64,000 nucleotides of DNA, taken from assembly GCF_900099805.1 (NCBI RefSeq), contig NZ_FNDR01000001.1, positions 620,001-684,000 of the forward strand, written 5' to 3'. Position 1 is the stretch's first letter. Every line of letters starts with the position of its first letter. The DNA comes from Variovorax sp. OV700 (GTDB lineage Bacteria; Pseudomonadota; Gammaproteobacteria; Burkholderiales; Burkholderiaceae_C). Shown here piece after piece: positions 34,831 to 56,518 of this stretch. The notes below the pieces were generated by a model. That model was not told where the DNA came from and searched no databases. It saw nothing but the letters and a program-made list of their open reading frames with translations. Both the position numbers and the translations under genes were made by a program.

Positions 34831-35606
34831 AATCCGAAGAGCCACTGATTCCCCAGCTTCCTTCGTTCGATTTGCACGGCAAACGCGCGCTTGTCACGGG
34901 CGCCGGGCGTGGAATCGGATTCGCGGCCGCTTTCACGTTGGCCGCGGCCGGCGCCCACGTGGTGCTGGCAGCGCGGACCCGCGCTGAGATCGAAGCCGCC
35001 GCATTGAGGATCCGGGAGCTCGGCCACCGAGCGGACACGCTCACAGTGGATGTCGCCGATCTGGAGGTCATGGCCAAGGCAATGTCGGAAGCCGAGCCGT
35101 TCAACATCTTGGTGAACAACGCCGGGACCAATCGGCCGGCGGCTGTGCTCGATGTCGAGCCGGCTGACTTCGACACGGTCTTCAACCTGAACGTCCGCGC
35201 GGCCTTCTTCGTGGCCCAGGCGTTCGCCAAAAGGCTGGTCAACCTGGGTCGACCGGGTTCCATCATCAACATGTCGTCGCAGATGGGACATGTCGGGGCC
35301 GCAAGGCGTGCGGTGTATTGCGCGTCCAAGCACGCGGTCGAAGGATTCACTAAAGCGATGGCGATCGAACTTGGACCTCACGGCATACGCGTCAACTCCC
35401 TCGCCGCCACCTTCATCGAAACTCCGATGACCCGACCGTTCCTGGCCAATGAGGACTTCAAGTCCGAAGTGCTGCAGAAGATCAAGCTAGGAAGGCTCGG
35501 ACAGGTGACTGATCTGACGGGCGGGATACTGTTCCTCGCTTCAGACGCATCCAGCCTGATGACGGGAAGTTCACTCGTCATCGATGGCGGCTGGACCGCG
35601 GATTAA
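34827..35606 (+). CDS. Short-chain dehydrogenase/reductase (SDR)
   Basis: 259 residues, classical SDR. Cofactor motif TGAGRGIG near residue 25, NNAG, catalytic Ser in NMSSQMG, and YCASK with the active Tyr and Lys. The C-terminal DGGWTAD end is typical of FabG-like enzymes. It probably oxidises or reduces a hydroxy/keto intermediate of the pathway that also uses the molybdenum hydroxylase. Start overlaps the coxG-like gene. Confidence 0.9.
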   Translation: MKSEEPLIPQLPSFDLHGKRALVTGAGRGIGFAAAFTLAAAGAHVVLAARTRAEIEAAALRIRELGHRADTLTVDVADLEVMAKAMSEAEPFNILVNNAGTNRPAAVLDVEPADFDTVFNLNVRAAFFVAQAFAKRLVNLGRPGSIINMSSQMGHVGAARRAVYCASKHAVEGFTKAMAIELGPHGIRVNSLAATFIETPMTRPFLANEDFKSEVLQKIKLGRLGQVTDLTGGILFLASDASSLMTGSSLVIDGGWTAD

Positions 35607-49339: not shown

Positions 49340-49921
49340 GATTAAGCGGATTCCATTCTGCGCGCGGTACATCCCGCGTTGCGCGTCGAACTCACGCTGA
49401 CCGATCGGGTGCTCGACCTGACTGCATGGGGCGCAGATTGCTGGGTTTGCGTGGGCGAGGTGCGCGATCCTGGATTGGTGAGCCGCAAGCTCGGCACGAT
49501 GGAACGTGTGCTGATCGCCGCGCCCGAATTGCTCAAGAAGCTGGGGCCCGTCAGCATCGCGCCTTTCGCAGTTGCCCTGCGTCGGGCTCGCGCCCTACGT
49601 GACCGGCAAGTGCGCATGCTGGATCGATCGGGCCGCTCCCGCATGGAGATGCTCGACACGCCGATCCAGACCGACAGCCTGTTGTCGAGCTACCGCGCGA
49701 TCCTCAATGGAGCCGGTATCGGCGCGGCGGCCCCCTGGATGTGCCAGGAAGACCTCAAGACCGGTCGGGTGCAGCGGGTGCTGGCGAACTGGTGGCTCGA
49801 ACCGATCGCCCTTCATGCCGCCCTGCCTCCGGGCATCTACAGGCCAGCGCGCGTCACTGCATTCATCGACGCCCTAAAGACGAGGATGTTTGCCCTCTCG
49901 GGCTTCGAGCAGTCAAGCTAG
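49340..49921 (+). pseudogene. LysR-family regulator lacking its DNA-binding domain
   Basis: The frame starts abruptly within a LysR effector domain (HPALRVELTLTDRVLDL, VSRKLGTMERVLIAAPELL) and runs to a normal C-terminus at 49921. No HTH precedes it: the GntR stop is at 49320. Without a DNA-binding domain it cannot act as a normal regulator, so it is a 5'-deleted remnant. Confidence 0.75.
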
Positions 49922-49961: not shown

Positions 49962-50828
49962 TCAATCTGCCACGGATCCTCTCTTGCGGGCAGTAGCGGG
50001 CCTCTGCACAGAGGCGAGATTCGTCGCCGCAATCGAAGATTTCCGCGTCGGTGGAGCCTGCTGTTCGCGTTGTCGAATCGCTTCGAGATAGTTGTAGACC
50101 GTGTACCTTGAGAGCCCCAGTGCCTTGGCGGCTCGTGGAACGCTGCCTTTCACGATGAACAACCCACGGCGCAGCATCTCCTCGACAGCCTTGCTCTTCT
50201 CGTCCTTGGTCATCAGCAGCACGGGCTTCGCGAGGTTTTGAACTGCGGATTCAATAATCTCCGCCATCAGGGCGTCCATGTCAGCAGATTCGGCATGTGT
50301 TTCTCCGTTCACCTTCACATTCGACGGTCCATCGATAGCCCTGCCAACCCATGCGTGCACCAGTTTGAGCATCTGGAGATCGACGTTGGCACAAAGTGCC
50401 GCCAAGGGTGTTCCGGACTCGGAACGAAAGATGACGGTTGCTGATTTGAGAGGGGTGCCAGCTGGACTGACTGTGGGATAGACGCCGACCATTGCGTGCC
50501 CCTCATCGGAGGCCTCAGTCGTAGTAGCAAACGCTGCGGTAAAGGCATGATCGTCTTTCGGGCCGCTCAGGATAGGGCTTCCAACCGATCTACCCGAGAC
50601 CTGTCCGTTGGCGATGGCGACTACGGAAGCATCTGGATGTGTGAGGTCATGGAGCACCAGTTCCGTATTGGGCGGCAGTATTTGCTCCATCAGATCAACG
50701 ACGGGACGCAGGATTGACATCATCCGGTCCCGCTCGATTGCCAGTTGACTGCGCTCAAGCCGATGTCGCCCACCTGGCGCGGCGGCTAGCGGGATGGCAG
50801 CGGAGTCGCGAAGCTTGCGTGAGGACAT
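49962..50828 (-). CDS. YheO/DauR-like regulator (PAS-like domain plus HTH)
   Basis: 288 residues. A YheO-type PAS-like domain spans about 35-155 (PVVDLMEQILPPNTELVLHD, CANVDLQMLK). A C-terminal DauR-type helix-turn-helix is near 205-250 (GSVPRAAKALGLSRYTVYNYL). DauR represses D-arginine catabolism, and relatives regulate amino-acid genes. The gene diverges from the exported PLP enzyme-RidA pair at 51002 with a palindrome between, so it probably regulates that pair. The effector is likely an amino acid or its product (inference). Confidence 0.88.
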   Translation of the reverse strand: MSSRKLRDSAAIPLAAAPGGRHRLERSQLAIERDRMMSILRPVVDLMEQILPPNTELVLHDLTHPDASVVAIANGQVSGRSVGSPILSGPKDDHAFTAAFATTTEASDEGHAMVGVYPTVSPAGTPLKSATVIFRSESGTPLAALCANVDLQMLKLVHAWVGRAIDGPSNVKVNGETHAESADMDALMAEIIESAVQNLAKPVLLMTKDEKSKAVEEMLRRGLFIVKGSVPRAAKALGLSRYTVYNYLEAIRQREQQAPPTRKSSIAATNLASVQRPATARKRGSVAD

Positions 50829-50876
50829 GTAAGTAGGTGTCTCCGGGGATTGAGGGGGTTAGTCCTAGGCGAACAC

Positions 50877-50893
50877 TTCAACATAGTGTTGAA
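50877..50893. promoter_or_regulatory. 17-bp palindrome between the DauR-like and PLP-enzyme genes
   Basis: TTCAACATAGTGTTGAA has seven-base perfect arms around TAG. More half-sites (GTTGAAC near 50907, TTCAACT near 50968) lie in the same 173-bp divergent region. This is a strong candidate operator for the DauR-like regulator. Confidence 0.6.
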
Positions 50894-51001
50894 CAATACA
50901 CAGTGAGTTGAACAGGCGTCGCTCTTGCAGGCTGCGATGACTATAGGCCAGCAGTTCGCCCTGGAATTCAACTCTTTGTTGGCCTATTGACAAGGAGTTT
51001 A

Positions 51002-52321
51002 ATGAAAATGAACGAAGTTGAATCCCAGGTTCTGCCTGAGGCCTCTCGTCGCCGCTGGCTCAAGTCCATCGGCGGTGCATCGATCGCTGGCTTGCTCGGA
51101 GGCCAGCTCACGGGATGCGGCGGAAGCTCAGGGGGCGCACCCATCTCGCCGGCATCTGCGGCTGAACCGCAGACGCCCGCAGACGCATCGAGCCTTCCGG
51201 CGAAGGCACTATTTCCCGGAGTAGCAGACCGTGTCTACCTCAATGGAGCGGCGGACCATCCATGGAACCAGTACGCCACGGACGCCTTGAAGGGCTACGC
51301 TCAATCCAAGCTTTCCCTTGTCGGCGGAGGCGCCACCGCGACAGCGAAGTTCGCCGCGCTCATCAACGCCGACGCCGACGAGGTCACCTATGTCCCAAGC
51401 ACTTCAATGGGTGAATACCTCGTCACCAAGTCGCTTGGCCTGCCGGCCAGTGGCGGCCGAGTTGTGACTGACGCCTTGCATTTTGTAGGCTCGTTCTACA
51501 TGTACGAGCAATACCGTCTGCAAGGCCTGGACGTCGTGACGGTTCCAATGAATGCCGACTATCGGATCCCGCTCAGCGCTCTCGATGCTGCAATTTCTCC
51601 CGGAACCAAGCTGGTCGCCATCTCGCACGTGTCTCTCTACAACGGATTCACGCACGATTTGAAGGCGGTCTGTGACCTGGCGCACTCTCGGGGGGCCCTC
51701 GTCTATGTCGACTTGATCCAGTCGGCGGGCGCCATTCCCGTGGATGTCAAAGCTGCCGGCGTGGATTTTGCGGCATGCGGAACCTATAAGTGGCTCATGG
51801 GAGACTTTGGGTTTGCATTCCTCTATGTGCGCAAGAGCCTTCTCTCGCAGCTCCAACGTCCTTGGTATGGCTATCGCCAAACGCGAAACTTCGCGGCGCC
51901 GATCTTGCACGTCTACCCGCTGGACGCTCCCGGCAGTGTTCCGTATGAAAGTGCGCAGATCAACTCGGTCGCAGGCTACTTTGCGGGTTCGTTCCCCGCT
52001 TCGTCCGTGGAAGCAGCTTGCGCAGCATCCATTGATTGGATTCAAAGCATCGGGGTAGAAAAGATCCAGGCTTACCGCAAGCCCATGACCGATGCGCTGC
52101 AGGCTGGCTTGCGCGCGAGAGGTTTTCAGGTGGTGACGCCTCCAGAAACTGTTTCGCCAATCGTTACGTTTTCCTATGCGAACGCTTCGCAACTGTCCAG
52201 TCGGTTGTCGCCTGCAAAGGTCGAAATCACTTTACGGGCCAACCACGCGCGCATTTCGCCATCGGTCTACAACGACATCAGCGACATCGACAAGTTTCTC
52301 GCTGCCATCGGAACCCCCTGA
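51002..52321 (+). CDS. Exported PLP-dependent class-V aminotransferase-fold lipoprotein
   Basis: 439 residues. AAGGAG at 50992 precedes the ATGs at 51002 and 51008. The N-terminus has a twin-arginine motif (SRRRWLKSIGG) and a lipobox LTGC with Cys39, followed by a flexible Ser/Ala/Pro linker to about residue 70. The rest is a class-V PLP fold: cofactor-binding Asp in VYVDLIQSAG (Asp237), Schiff-base Lys in CGTYKWLMG (Lys263), and a C-terminal RANHARISPSVYND substrate region. Relatives are cysteine desulfurases/selenocysteine lyases and isopenicillin-N epimerase-like enzymes. Tat export fits a protein folded with PLP in the cytoplasm and then anchored in the envelope. A RidA lipoprotein gene follows six bases later. 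Substrate and reaction are unknown. Confidence 0.88.
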   Translation: MKMNEVESQVLPEASRRRWLKSIGGASIAGLLGGQLTGCGGSSGGAPISPASAAEPQTPADASSLPAKALFPGVADRVYLNGAADHPWNQYATDALKGYAQSKLSLVGGGATATAKFAALINADADEVTYVPSTSMGEYLVTKSLGLPASGGRVVTDALHFVGSFYMYEQYRLQGLDVVTVPMNADYRIPLSALDAAISPGTKLVAISHVSLYNGFTHDLKAVCDLAHSRGALVYVDLIQSAGAIPVDVKAAGVDFAACGTYKWLMGDFGFAFLYVRKSLLSQLQRPWYGYRQTRNFAAPILHVYPLDAPGSVPYESAQINSVAGYFAGSFPASSVEAACAASIDWIQSIGVEKIQAYRKPMTDALQAGLRARGFQVVTPPETVSPIVTFSYANASQLSSRLSPAKVEITLRANHARISPSVYNDISDIDKFLAAIGTP

Positions 52322-52326
52322 ATCCA

Positions 52327-52806
52327 ATGAGCTCCACCCTCCACGCATCCAAACCGTCCCTTGCCCGTCTTTTTGGCATGAGCGCATTCGCACTCGCCCT
52401 TGCAGTGAGTGCGGGATGCACCACCACCCCCAAGTACCTGAACTCGGGAAAGATCTTGCCTACCACTCTTCCTTTTTCGGAGGCGGTCCTAGTCGGCGGC
52501 ACGCTGTACCTGTCCGGCCAGATCGGAAATATTCCTGGCAGCCTCAAGCTGCCGCCCGGTGGCATCAAAGCAGAATCCAAGCAGGTTCTCGACAACATCA
52601 GGACCTCGCTGGAGGCGCACGGCTACTCGTTGGACGATGTGGTCAAGTGCACGGCGATGCTTGCCGACATGAGCGAGTGGACTGCATTCAACGATGTCTA
52701 CAAGACGTACTTCAAGGATGGGAAGTTTCCTGCTCGAAGTGCGTTCGGTGCCACGTCCCTGGCTTTCAACGCGCGAGTGGAACTGGAGTGCATCGCCGCG
52801 AAGTAG
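52327..52806 (+). CDS. RidA-family imine deaminase-like lipoprotein
   Basis: 159 residues. A signal peptide with lipobox VSAGC (Cys31) precedes a full Rid domain: FSEAVLVGGTLYLSGQIG, the trimer-core strands, the substrate carboxylate-binding Arg137 in FPARSAFG, and VELECIA at the end with the conserved Glu. Cytoplasmic RidA hydrolyses reactive enamines/imines released by PLP enzymes. Here the domain carries an export signal and sits five bases after an exported PLP enzyme gene, so it may do the same job in the envelope. The catalytic Arg is present, so activity is plausible. Confidence 0.88.
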   Translation: MSSTLHASKPSLARLFGMSAFALALAVSAGCTTTPKYLNSGKILPTTLPFSEAVLVGGTLYLSGQIGNIPGSLKLPPGGIKAESKQVLDNIRTSLEAHGYSLDDVVKCTAMLADMSEWTAFNDVYKTYFKDGKFPARSAFGATSLAFNARVELECIAAK

Positions 52807-53438: not shown

Positions 53439-54293
53439 TTACCGGGCTACGCGGACAGACATCGCGCCGATCCCCTGCACCGAGGCGTTCAGCACATCCC
53501 CTGCGGCCACCGGTCCGACACCGGCCGGTGTCCCCGTCATGATCACGTCCCCTGGATGCAGCGTGTAGATGGCAGACGCATATTCGATCAGTCGCTGGAC
53601 GTCGAAGATCAGGTACTTCGTGTTCGATGACTGCTTGACCTCACCGTTGACGCGGATGCTGAGATCGAGATCGTTCGGATCGAGAATTTCGTCTTTGGTC
53701 ACCATCCAGGGCCCCAGCACGCAGAAAGTGTCGGGCGATTTGCGGAAGGTCGGAAATTCGGGTCCGCGCACCGTCATGTCGAGCCCGATGCAGTACCCCA
53801 GAACGTAGTCGAGTGCCACGGCCCGGGAAACGCGCTTTGCTGTTCTACCGATGATGACAGCCAGTTCCACCTCGTGGTCGGTACGCCGGTCCGGGAAGGG
53901 AATCTGGATCTCCTGGCTGCAGCCGATGAGGGAACTGTTGGCCTTGAGGAACAACCCGAACTTGTCGAGTTCCGTGTACGTCTTGCCGTGGTTGATCTCG
54001 TTATCGGCGTTCGCTTCATCGATGTGATCCTTGTAATTGATGGGTGCGCCGATGATCTTTCCGGGGTTGGCCACCGGGGACAGCAACTGCACTTGTTCCA
54101 GAGGCGTGGGCGCCCCGGTGGCCGCGATCTGCTCAATCCGCTCACGCGCGGCTTCGAAATTCTGGATCAGCCAGTCCGCCGGCGGATAGGGCCAGGAGGC
54201 CTTCGGAATGTGCGAGAAAGCAGGCGTGACGTCGACGACGCCGGTTCCGGTAATCACGCCGATGCGATGATTGTCAAAGAGGCAGAGCTTCAT
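53439..54293 (-). CDS. FAH-family hydrolase of the gentisate pathway
   Basis: 284 residues. FAH signatures: GKIIGAPINYKDHIDEA, DHEVELAVIIG (metal Glu and Asp), and GDVIMTGTPAGVGPV. As last gene of the salicylate/gentisate operon, 27 bases after the gentisate dioxygenase gene, it is expected to cleave maleylpyruvate or fumarylpyruvate to pyruvate and maleate or fumarate. No maleylpyruvate isomerase gene is present, so direct maleylpyruvate hydrolysis is possible. Confidence 0.87.
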   Translation of the reverse strand: MKLCLFDNHRIGVITGTGVVDVTPAFSHIPKASWPYPPADWLIQNFEAARERIEQIAATGAPTPLEQVQLLSPVANPGKIIGAPINYKDHIDEANADNEINHGKTYTELDKFGLFLKANSSLIGCSQEIQIPFPDRRTDHEVELAVIIGRTAKRVSRAVALDYVLGYCIGLDMTVRGPEFPTFRKSPDTFCVLGPWMVTKDEILDPNDLDLSIRVNGEVKQSSNTKYLIFDVQRLIEYASAIYTLHPGDVIMTGTPAGVGPVAAGDVLNASVQGIGAMSVRVAR

Positions 54294-54320
54294 CTTGTTG
54301 ATTCCAGTAGTTGCAGCAGG

Positions 54321-55358
54321 TCAGCTTCGGGCTTCGCGCAAGAGGCCCAGCTTTTCGTGAACAGGCCGGTCCGAATAGCTGAAAAGTACCGTGTCCCGGC
54401 GGGCGGCCACGGTCCATTCGCTCCAGCCCGGGACCACCGCCACATCGTTGGGGCCGATGCGAAGGGCTTCGCATCCCTTCACGCATATTTCCGCTTCTCC
54501 CTCCAGACCGACCAACACTGTGCTGTCCGTCGACCTGTAGGGCCGCGTCGCGAATCCGCCCGGGTAGTAGCGCAGCACCGCACCGATCGTCGGCATCGCC
54601 CAACCCCCGGTGGTCGGATTGACGTACCGCAGGCAGACGCCCAGATGGGGGTCGGGGTCGGCAGTGCGTGCCTGCACCTCAATGGCCTCTCGCGCACGCA
54701 CATACGGGTAGCAGAACATCGGCGACGTCAGCCCGCGCTGCACATGATCGATTGGCAATAGGCCCGAGCCGAAACGCGCCGCGCTCTCGCCTGCTCCGCG
54801 GCTGGTGGTCTGAACCTTGTGCGAGAACTCCTCGCGGAACCCTGCCCGCAAGAACGTGACCAGCGGAACATCGAGCCCGTCCAGCCACACCACCGGTTCG
54901 CCCCCGTCATGACCATGGTCATGCCATGTCCAGTGCGGCGTGATGATGAAGTCTCCGCGGTTCATCGGCGTCTTTTCTCCATCGACCGCGGTGTACGCGC
55001 CAGAGCCATGCAGCACGAACCGCAATGCCGATTGTGTGTGCCGGTGCGCCGGGGCTGTCTCGCCAGGCAGGATCAGCTGCAGCCCGGCGTAGAGCGTATC
55101 GGTCACCTGGGATTTGCCGGGCAGGCCAGGGTTCTCGAGGACCAGCACCCGGCGCTCGGCCTCTTCGGCGGTGATCAATTCGCCGGCCCGAAGCAGCTGG
55201 GGGTACACCTCGTCCCAAGACCACATGCAAGCCCGAGCCGCGGGGACCGGCTGCGCCGGAACCAGGCCCTTGAGTACGCTCCACAGCGGCGCCAGGTTCA
55301 GCGGCTGCAGTTGCTCGTAGTAGCGCTCACGCGCCAAGTCTTCCGTACTGTCGGTCAT
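54321..55358 (-). CDS. Gentisate 1,2-dioxygenase-like cupin enzyme
   Basis: 345 residues with two cupin domains. The N-terminal cupin has the iron-ligand His in APAHRHTQSALRFVLHG and a third ligand in PHWTWHDHGHDG, as in gentisate 1,2-dioxygenases; WSWDEVYPQLLRAGELI is a family phrase near residue 47. It opens the gentisate ring with O2 to maleylpyruvate. The chosen ATG (GGGAGAG upstream) overlaps the monooxygenase stop in TGATG; an ATG one codon earlier is possible. Confidence 0.92.
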   Translation of the reverse strand: MTDSTEDLARERYYEQLQPLNLAPLWSVLKGLVPAQPVPAARACMWSWDEVYPQLLRAGELITAEEAERRVLVLENPGLPGKSQVTDTLYAGLQLILPGETAPAHRHTQSALRFVLHGSGAYTAVDGEKTPMNRGDFIITPHWTWHDHGHDGGEPVVWLDGLDVPLVTFLRAGFREEFSHKVQTTSRGAGESAARFGSGLLPIDHVQRGLTSPMFCYPYVRAREAIEVQARTADPDPHLGVCLRYVNPTTGGWAMPTIGAVLRYYPGGFATRPYRSTDSTVLVGLEGEAEICVKGCEALRIGPNDVAVVPGWSEWTVAARRDTVLFSYSDRPVHEKLGLLREARS

Positions 55359-56518
55359 CATGACTCTCCCGTGGTCCGCTCGGCAGCGGCGGCGCTCCGC
55401 CACGCCTCATAGCCATCGACGAAGCGCGGAGACATGGCTCGCAAGCGCTCGGGATCGATCCGTCCCGACCGGCCGATGTAGGACATCGCAAACTCCCACG
55501 CAGGCTGATTCAGGTGCTCGGCGAAATGGTCGTACCAGGTGGCGCTGCGCGTGGCGGCGCCAGCCAGCTTGTCCACGATCGGCTTCCTCTGTTCAACGAA
55601 CTCACCCAGTGCGTCGTCCACGCTGTCAGGGTGTCCGGCGAGCGCATGGACGAGCGCCTGCACATCCTCCAGCGCGAGGCGCGTTCCAGATCCGATCGAA
55701 AAATGCGCGGTACGCAATGCGTCGCCAAGCAGCACGTGCTTGCCGACCACCCACTTCTGGTTGCTGATGACCGGGAAGCGGCGCCACAACGATCTGTTGG
55801 TCACCAGCTGGGCGCCTTCCAACTCCTCGGAGAACAAGCCTTCGCAATAGCGCCTCGACTGCTCCTCGCTCATCCGTTCGAAGCCGACGCGCTCGAAGGT
55901 CTGTGCGTCCACTTCCACCAGGAAGGTGCTCATCGAAGGCGCGTAGCGGTAATGGTGCGCATTGAAGCTTCCCTGCGACAGTTGCTTGAACGTTTGGGTC
56001 AGGTAGTCGAACGGCCGGTTGGCGCCGAACCACGCGAACCGGTTCTCCAGCAACGTCACTTGCGTGCCGAATTGCGGCTCGAACGTTCTGCGCACGAGGG
56101 AGTTCACGCCATCCGCACCGATCACGAGATCCGCTTCGCCGAGCTCCGCGAGGTCATGGACGACGCGGCTGTCGATCAGGGTGGCTCCAACGGACAGCGC
56201 CCGTTCGCGCAGGATGTCCAGCAGATGCAACCGCCCGATGGCCGTGAATCCGACGCCATCGACGCGAATACGCTGGCCATGGACGCGCAGTTCGATGTCG
56301 CTCCACCTCTCGAGCCCGGCCGTGATGAGCGACAGCGTTTCCTCGTCGCCTGCGGCCAGAAACTCCAGCGCGCGGTCCGAGAACACTACGCCAAAGCCGA
56401 ACGTTGTGTGGGCGTGGTTCTGCTCGAACACCGTCACTTCGGCGCCCGGCACCTCGCGCCGGATGCGGTAGGCGGCATAGAGACCTGCCGGCCCCCCGCC
56501 AAGAATCTTGACTTTCAT
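55358..56518 (-). CDS. FAD monooxygenase, salicylyl-CoA 5-hydroxylase-like
   Basis: 386 residues from the ATG at 56518 (AAGGAG upstream). Flavoprotein motifs: GGGPAGLYAAYRIRR at the N-terminus, GADGVNSLVRR near residue 150, and VLLGDALRTAHFSIGSGTRL near 280. The last, with its AHFSIGSGT phrase, is characteristic of salicylyl-CoA and 2-aminobenzoyl-CoA monooxygenases rather than free-salicylate hydroxylases. Together with the ligase and thioesterase genes next to it, the likely reaction is salicylyl-CoA to gentisyl-CoA. It has only the single hydroxylase domain, unlike the bifunctional aminobenzoyl-CoA type. Confidence 0.88.
   Translation of the reverse strand: MKVKILGGGPAGLYAAYRIRREVPGAEVTVFEQNHAHTTFGFGVVFSDRALEFLAAGDEETLSLITAGLERWSDIELRVHGQRIRVDGVGFTAIGRLHLLDILRERALSVGATLIDSRVVHDLAELGEADLVIGADGVNSLVRRTFEPQFGTQVTLLENRFAWFGANRPFDYLTQTFKQLSQGSFNAHHYRYAPSMSTFLVEVDAQTFERVGFERMSEEQSRRYCEGLFSEELEGAQLVTNRSLWRRFPVISNQKWVVGKHVLLGDALRTAHFSIGSGTRLALEDVQALVHALAGHPDSVDDALGEFVEQRKPIVDKLAGAATRSATWYDHFAEHLNQPAWEFAMSYIGRSGRIDPERLRAMSPRFVDGYEAWRSAAAAERTTGES

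Follow-up and report, generated by a model that had tools for sequence, protein, structure and literature searches.

A predicted exported PLP enzyme encoded next to a predicted RidA lipoprotein in Variovorax, and the recurrence of RidA linkage among related loci

The window that we analyzed, a 64,000-nucleotide stretch of the Variovorax sp. OV700 genome, holds a gene for a class V PLP enzyme, a RidA gene directly behind it, and a regulator gene that runs in the opposite direction (Table 1). The enzyme matched Aminotran_5 (PF00266; E 5e-36, 124.8 bits against a gathering threshold of 21.5), which places it among the fold type I PLP enzymes, and its neighbor matched Ribonuc_L-PSP (PF01042; E 8e-29, 100.5 bits against a cut-off of 27.3), which assigns it to the Rid family. 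The best start for the enzyme is ATG 51002, with AAGGAG at 50992 resembling a ribosome site, and RidA starts at ATG 52327, 5 bases after the TGA of the enzyme. At the motif level both proteins present the bacterial lipoprotein pattern of a lipobox cysteine behind a hydrophobic stretch, in agreement with a first-pass annotation that had described a class V enzyme with a twin-arginine motif and lipobox followed directly by a RidA homologue with a lipobox of its own. The same annotation had placed the pair opposite a DauR-like gene across a palindromic operator; a gene with PAS_6 (85.1 bits) and HTH_22 (68.4 bits) domains, each over its cut-off, and a perfect palindrome are indeed present, and the palindrome presumably serves as the operator. 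The name DauR is taken over from that annotation; no NCBIfam model matched the protein. On either side of these genes lie a remnant of a LysR-type regulator (49346-49921, + strand) that retains the substrate-binding domain only, its DNA-binding start being gone, and genes for a fumarylacetoacetase-type hydrolase and a gentisate 1,2-dioxygenase (53439-55403, - strand), an adjoining aromatic degradation cluster that is apparently unrelated.

Table 1 Features of the gene pair and of the region upstream of it
Feature	Position in window	Strand	Remarks
DauR-like regulator (YheO-like PAS + HTH_22), divergent	49962..50828	-	conserved in two other Variovorax loci
Palindrome TTCAACA-TAG-TGTTGAA	50877..50893	.	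probable operator, to which the DauR-like protein would bind
Extra half-site TTGAACA	50908..50914	.	intergenic sequence
Second palindrome, imperfect, TTCAACTCTTTGTTG	50967..50981	.	near enzyme start; TTCAAC retained in three aligned Variovorax sequences
Class V PLP enzyme, 439 aa	51002..52321	+	predicted Tat-exported lipoprotein, SRRRWLKS + LTGC39; PLP lysine K263
RidA homologue, 159 aa	52327..52806	+	predicted lipoprotein, lipobox SAGC31; Arg137 at the position of goat RidA Arg107 in the alignment

A search of the window for TTCAACA-N3-TGTTGAA with up to two mismatches gave 2 matches against 0.14 expected, namely the perfect copy and a site at 35100 with one mismatch, and in the 6.48 Mb of the genome itself this is the sole perfect copy, with two further sites that carry one mismatch. 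At E 1e-30 the enzyme was found in 3 of 61 genomes (its own, 36 of the genus and 24 of the order). All three are Variovorax genomes; in each the palindrome and a divergent DauR-like gene accompany the enzyme, as does a RidA with lipobox, and the lipobox cysteine is retained in both relatives. In the 14 to 16 kb retrieved at each of the two other loci, the only frames of 100 aa or more that matched the window at E 1e-20 were those of the three genes and their shadow frames. A shared trio and palindrome amid differing flanks indicate that the unit of regulator, operator, enzyme and RidA persists in different surroundings, so that the arrangement noted in the window is conserved across three genomes. 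With up to four candidates scored per genome, the enzyme was detected at E 1e-40 in its own genome only among 399 genomes of the order, and at E 1e-60 in 4 of 398 genomes of the phylum, its own counted. The DauR-like gene was present only in the Variovorax loci among 82 loci scanned.

A scan of named genomes returned 233 relatives of the enzyme, from which the best 80 were fetched; these come from three phyla (Pseudomonadota, Bacteroidota and Acidobacteriota) and, being the best of 233, represent the closest relatives rather than an even sample. Export signals in the window proteins and in the relatives were assigned from motifs. A scripted Tat test that required a hydrophobic stretch after a twin-arginine motif, applied to the 80 fetched enzymes and L030, was passed by 78 of 81 N-termini, compared with 42 of 1620 shuffled N-termini and 96 of 645 other ORFs of the same loci, the latter control using a generous choice of start and possibly including truly exported ORFs or non-genes. 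The exceptions are L098, where TRK replaces RR, and L109 (DRRACLK), both read by eye, together with L101, which is not judgeable because its frame extends far upstream. The lipobox was matched by script in 8 of the 81 enzymes (L030, L034, L044, L072, L077, L083, L106 and L107), and by their N-terminal sequences the remaining enzymes look like soluble Tat substrates.

Four residues of the enzyme (K263, D237, H160 and R417) were invariant in all 45 aligned sequences, and K263 and D237 correspond to the PLP lysine and its partner aspartate. The predicted structure (mean pLDDT 88) has a SufS-like fold with Z up to 40.7, and the cystine lyase C-DES is close (Z 39.1); the enzyme thus resembles SufS/CsdA and C-DES in fold (Z 39 to 41) and in the lysine and aspartate of the PLP site. 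It differs from SufS in its export signal, in the absence of the catalytic-cysteine stretch from the profile alignment, and in a score of 97.2 bits on the curated SufS model, for which the cut-off is 475.1. An identity as cysteine desulfurase was discarded, since the protein lacks the cysteine loop and its scores lie far under the cut-off. The SufS fold and the PLP residues, taken with the lack of that loop, point to a PLP enzyme of SufS fold other than a cysteine desulfurase; desulfurase chemistry is unlikely.

For the RidA homologue, UK114/RidA structures were the top fold matches, with Capra hircus RidA (8qom_B) superposing at an rmsd of 1.4 and 42% identity. Arg137 aligns with goat Arg107, which we take to be the catalytic arginine, and both Arg137 and Glu152 were invariant in all 18 aligned sequences. 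The predicted fold and the aligned arginine suggest a likeness to the RidA imine/enamine deaminases; on the curated model for the RidA detoxifying hydrolase (TIGR00004) the protein scored 101 bits, a near miss of the cut-off of 106.25. Unlike the usual RidA, it has an N-terminal signal with a lipobox, and its neighbor is an exported-looking enzyme. The main text of a survey of the Rid family (PMC4433059) is free of the terms periplasm, signal peptide, secreted, exported and lipoprotein.

Whether RidA is linked to the enzyme in other genomes, a check that the first-pass annotation had proposed, was assessed by a profile scan for neighbors in the 80 loci. RidA occurred near the enzyme in 20 of these best 80 of 233, against an expectation of 0.24, obtained by scaling 23 matches in 20 genomes, whose rounded sizes sum to 97.7 Mb, to the 1.0 Mb examined; this expectation is perhaps too low because those 20 genomes were chosen for their RidA-free enzyme loci, and its background was taken with a profile and a threshold that differ from those of the locus scan. 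A match of only 31 bits in L098 was dropped, which reduced the loci with any RidA match from 21 to 20. RidA lies directly behind the enzyme in 11 of the linked loci, forms the end of an amidohydrolase fusion protein in 6, and lies farther off on the upstream side in 3 (at ∼3.3 kb in L054 and L064, at ∼4.4 kb in L056). Well-supported branches of the enzyme tree force at least seven gains or losses of the link, which therefore recurs in separate lineages. It is no rule, however: in 60 of the 80 loci a clearly related RidA is absent from the neighborhood, so the matched pair that had been envisaged is not an obligatory one. Among 20 genomes with RidA-free enzyme loci, 9 had none of this RidA type at E 1e-20, and 5 had an exported-looking RidA elsewhere.

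Of the 20 linked RidAs, 18 have a signal, on their own or through the protein to which they are fused. The exceptions are those of L035 and L036, where the enzyme does have one; these two RidAs could be cytoplasmic, or could be exported by riding on the folded Tat partner. The claim that both partners are exported is accordingly borne out, at the level of predicted signals, for nearly all enzymes and most linked RidAs, but not for the RidAs of these two loci. It seems highly improbable that the signals reflect wrong start calls and that both Variovorax proteins are cytoplasmic. Such an explanation could draw on the two signal-free RidAs and on the motif-based nature of the export predictions, but the signals recur over diverged N-termini in the enzymes and RidA neighbors alike, and the ribosome-site-like AAGGAG stands ahead of ATG 51002.

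The recurrence of the link also bears on an alternative in which the enzyme would work as a conventional transaminase of the periplasm and release no free imine, with RidA present by linkage or for another source of imines. A precedent exists in PtaA, a Tat-exported periplasmic transaminase (PMC6206403), and the many relatives' loci without a clearly related RidA fit this explanation. We nevertheless consider it distinctly unlikely, given the repeated gain or loss of the RidA link and its excess over expectation; in addition, the supply of keto-acid acceptors in the periplasm would probably be doubtful.

The genes around the relatives suggest a setting. S10 carboxypeptidases were present in 55 of the 80 enzyme loci, AsnC regulators in 50, TonB receptors in 48, ornithine cyclodeaminase-type proteins in 42, class I/II aminotransferases in 33, and amidohydrolases in 24 (6 of them RidA-fused). 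By eye, signals were found in 5 of 5 carboxypeptidases, 7 of 7 amidohydrolases and 0 of 1 cyclodeaminase examined; the aminotransferase matched arginine-cyclising enzymes below the cut-off. This context looks like outer-membrane uptake and periplasmic peptide breakdown, with amino acids processed in the periplasm and the cytoplasm alike, and the exported carboxypeptidases and TonB receptors around most relatives suggest peptide or amino-acid catabolism in the envelope. Nothing was found in favor of the cell-wall turnover raised in the first-pass annotation; the gene context points instead to scavenging of peptides and amino acids. In the open-licence literature we found no publication on the cluster of S10, TonB, cyclodeaminase, AsnC and aminotransferase genes around the enzyme (L034-L113).

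Hydrolysis of dehydropeptides yields enamines. RidA might accordingly serve the hydrolases, with exported carboxypeptidases or amidohydrolases cutting dehydroamino-acid or similar peptides to enamines and the PLP enzyme performing a separate step of the pathway. Consistent with this idea, S10 carboxypeptidases are the commonest neighbors found, the exported amidohydrolase-RidA fusion occurs in 6 of the 80 enzyme loci, and the same fusion is found away from the enzyme in two sampled genomes of the same class (L162 and L163), with an M19 dipeptidase beside the former. No hydrolase, however, is among the genes common to the three Variovorax loci, which are those for the regulator, the PLP enzyme and RidA, and we judge this alternative to be unlikely.

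A search of 398 genomes of the phylum with a RidA profile gave, after the window's own gene, 20 best matches above 124 bits (L118 to L137). A signal start, alone or by way of a parent protein, was present in 17 of these (L119, L121 and L131 lack it) and in none of the next nine RidAs fetched (L138 to L146). On a RidA tree in which 40 of 70 rows are exported, the label changed 5 times compared with 22.8 for shuffled labels; the tree has few columns and many unresolved forks, and the labels of the window protein, L030, L034, L123 and L125 were set by reading their N-termini. None of the 20 RidAs of this branch was near the PLP enzyme family within the 13 to 14 kb fetched (roughly 5 to 8 kb on each side). 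The one class V gene that did turn up close to a RidA, in L161, is an ordinary SufS with the stretch RAGHHCAQ and no signal, and was not counted as a pair. The location of the branch RidAs away from the enzyme implies that exported RidA is wider than the PLP pairing.

The 17 signal-bearing branch RidAs include two fusions to amidohydrolases and two to family 3 solute-binding proteins. In the latter arrangement (L165:5953-7155 and L168:6519-7712), the RidA domain is C-terminal on a signal-bearing binding protein, and the L165 fusion scores on lysine/arginine/ornithine-binding models under their cut-offs. Together with the ornithine cyclodeaminase and the aminotransferase match, this lysine/arginine-type fusion is suggestive of basic amino acids. 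We think it slightly less than evenly probable that bacteria possess a separate branch of exported Rid proteins which handles periplasmic enamines or imines and has been recruited repeatedly, by operon linkage or by fusion, to exported amino-acid proteins (amidohydrolases, lysine/arginine-type binding proteins and the class V PLP family with its Tat signals), the Variovorax pair being a small regulated form. An exported RidA could conversely be an envelope holdase chaperone or stress protein rather than an imine hydrolase: N-chlorinated RidA of Escherichia coli turns into a chaperone (PMC4284807), and the 20 sampled RidAs of this mostly exported branch sit away from the PLP family. The invariance of Arg137 and Glu152 argues against that role, as do the recurrent links to amino-acid or peptide enzymes and an amino-acid binding protein, which makes it very unlikely in our estimation.

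RidA is recognized as a cytoplasmic repair protein that removes PLP-derived enamines. An enamine or imine formed in the periplasm would lie beyond the reach of a cytoplasmic RidA, a difficulty that an exported RidA would solve. For the Variovorax pair we put at about an even chance a role as a regulated envelope module of amino-acid or peptide catabolism, in which an enamine or imine is released and then cleared by RidA. The class V enzyme would fold in the cytoplasm with PLP loaded, be exported by Tat and be anchored as a lipoprotein. Its periplasmic substrate would be a short peptide or a free amino acid, from which β-elimination, or an oxygen-dependent reaction such as is proposed for PvdN, would yield a free enamine or imine. 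The RidA lipoprotein would hydrolyze this product, giving ammonia and a keto acid, and would thereby protect envelope proteins, the PLP enzyme among them. A related amino acid would be sensed by the DauR-like protein, which would control the pair via TTCAACA-N3-TGTTGAA; through this operator the inducer, and by extension the substrate, could be traced directly.

Periplasmic PLP enzymes are described from pyoverdine tailoring in Pseudomonas, where PvdN and PtaA are exported by Tat in the folded state with PLP bound (PMC6206403), and for PvdN, of fold type I, a reaction with oxygen has been proposed (PMC7497351). These enzymes and the Variovorax enzyme have a twin-arginine signal in common at the motif level; PvdN was not among the matches listed for the enzyme in the sequence and structure comparisons, which is uninformative either way. 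The Variovorax enzyme is unlike PvdN and PtaA in its lipobox, in the RidA gene behind it and in the divergent DauR-like gene, and the fetched loci of most relatives differ from theirs in having carboxypeptidase and TonB receptor genes. Rid proteins of catabolic gene clusters include OngD, a RidA family member associated with the oxidation of chitin, and Rid6, from a nicotine cluster (PMC9537276, PMC7688666); OngD is treated among the cytoplasmic steps, and no export is reported for either protein in the available passages of these two papers. The first-pass view that no such system has been described is therefore too broad for the enzyme, since Tat-exported periplasmic PLP enzymes are already known, as is RidA separately; for the exported pair we recognized no paper among the open-licence publications listed, and what is new is the partnership with an exported RidA. 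Should RidA clean-up operate in the envelope as well, that compartment would also host PLP lyase or oxidase chemistry beyond the pyoverdine cases. A sizeable family of exported enzymes (233 relatives in one scan) with no assigned reaction would thereby gain a testable class of product, and a likely function could be assigned to exported Rid proteins.

Several other arrangements were observed. A more distant class V relative, L150 of genome G621 (E 9e-61), is without a signal, as is L121, the RidA of this branch that the same genome encodes on another contig, and the two are a possible cytoplasmic counterpart. In a sister locus (L152), RidA lies beside sarcosine-oxidase-type genes. The exported amidohydrolases with a RidA domain fused at the end include L162:6833-8461, L163:6414-8054 and L052:1666-4236; an M19 dipeptidase gene adjoins the L162 fusion and a GH20 hexosaminidase gene the L163 fusion. 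In Mucilaginibacter (L184:1489-2367, - strand; L189:1003-1881, + strand), a signal-like start and a SnoaL-like domain precede a C-terminal RidA domain. Signal-like RidAs away from the enzyme were also seen at L028:5432-5908, L029:5028-5516 and L011:1477-1938, in G001 (Variovorax) and G059 (from the order). In Nitrospirillum (L080, L082 and L090), the genes for the enzyme, RidA, S10 and S9 proteins and an amidohydrolase form a compact run on one strand.
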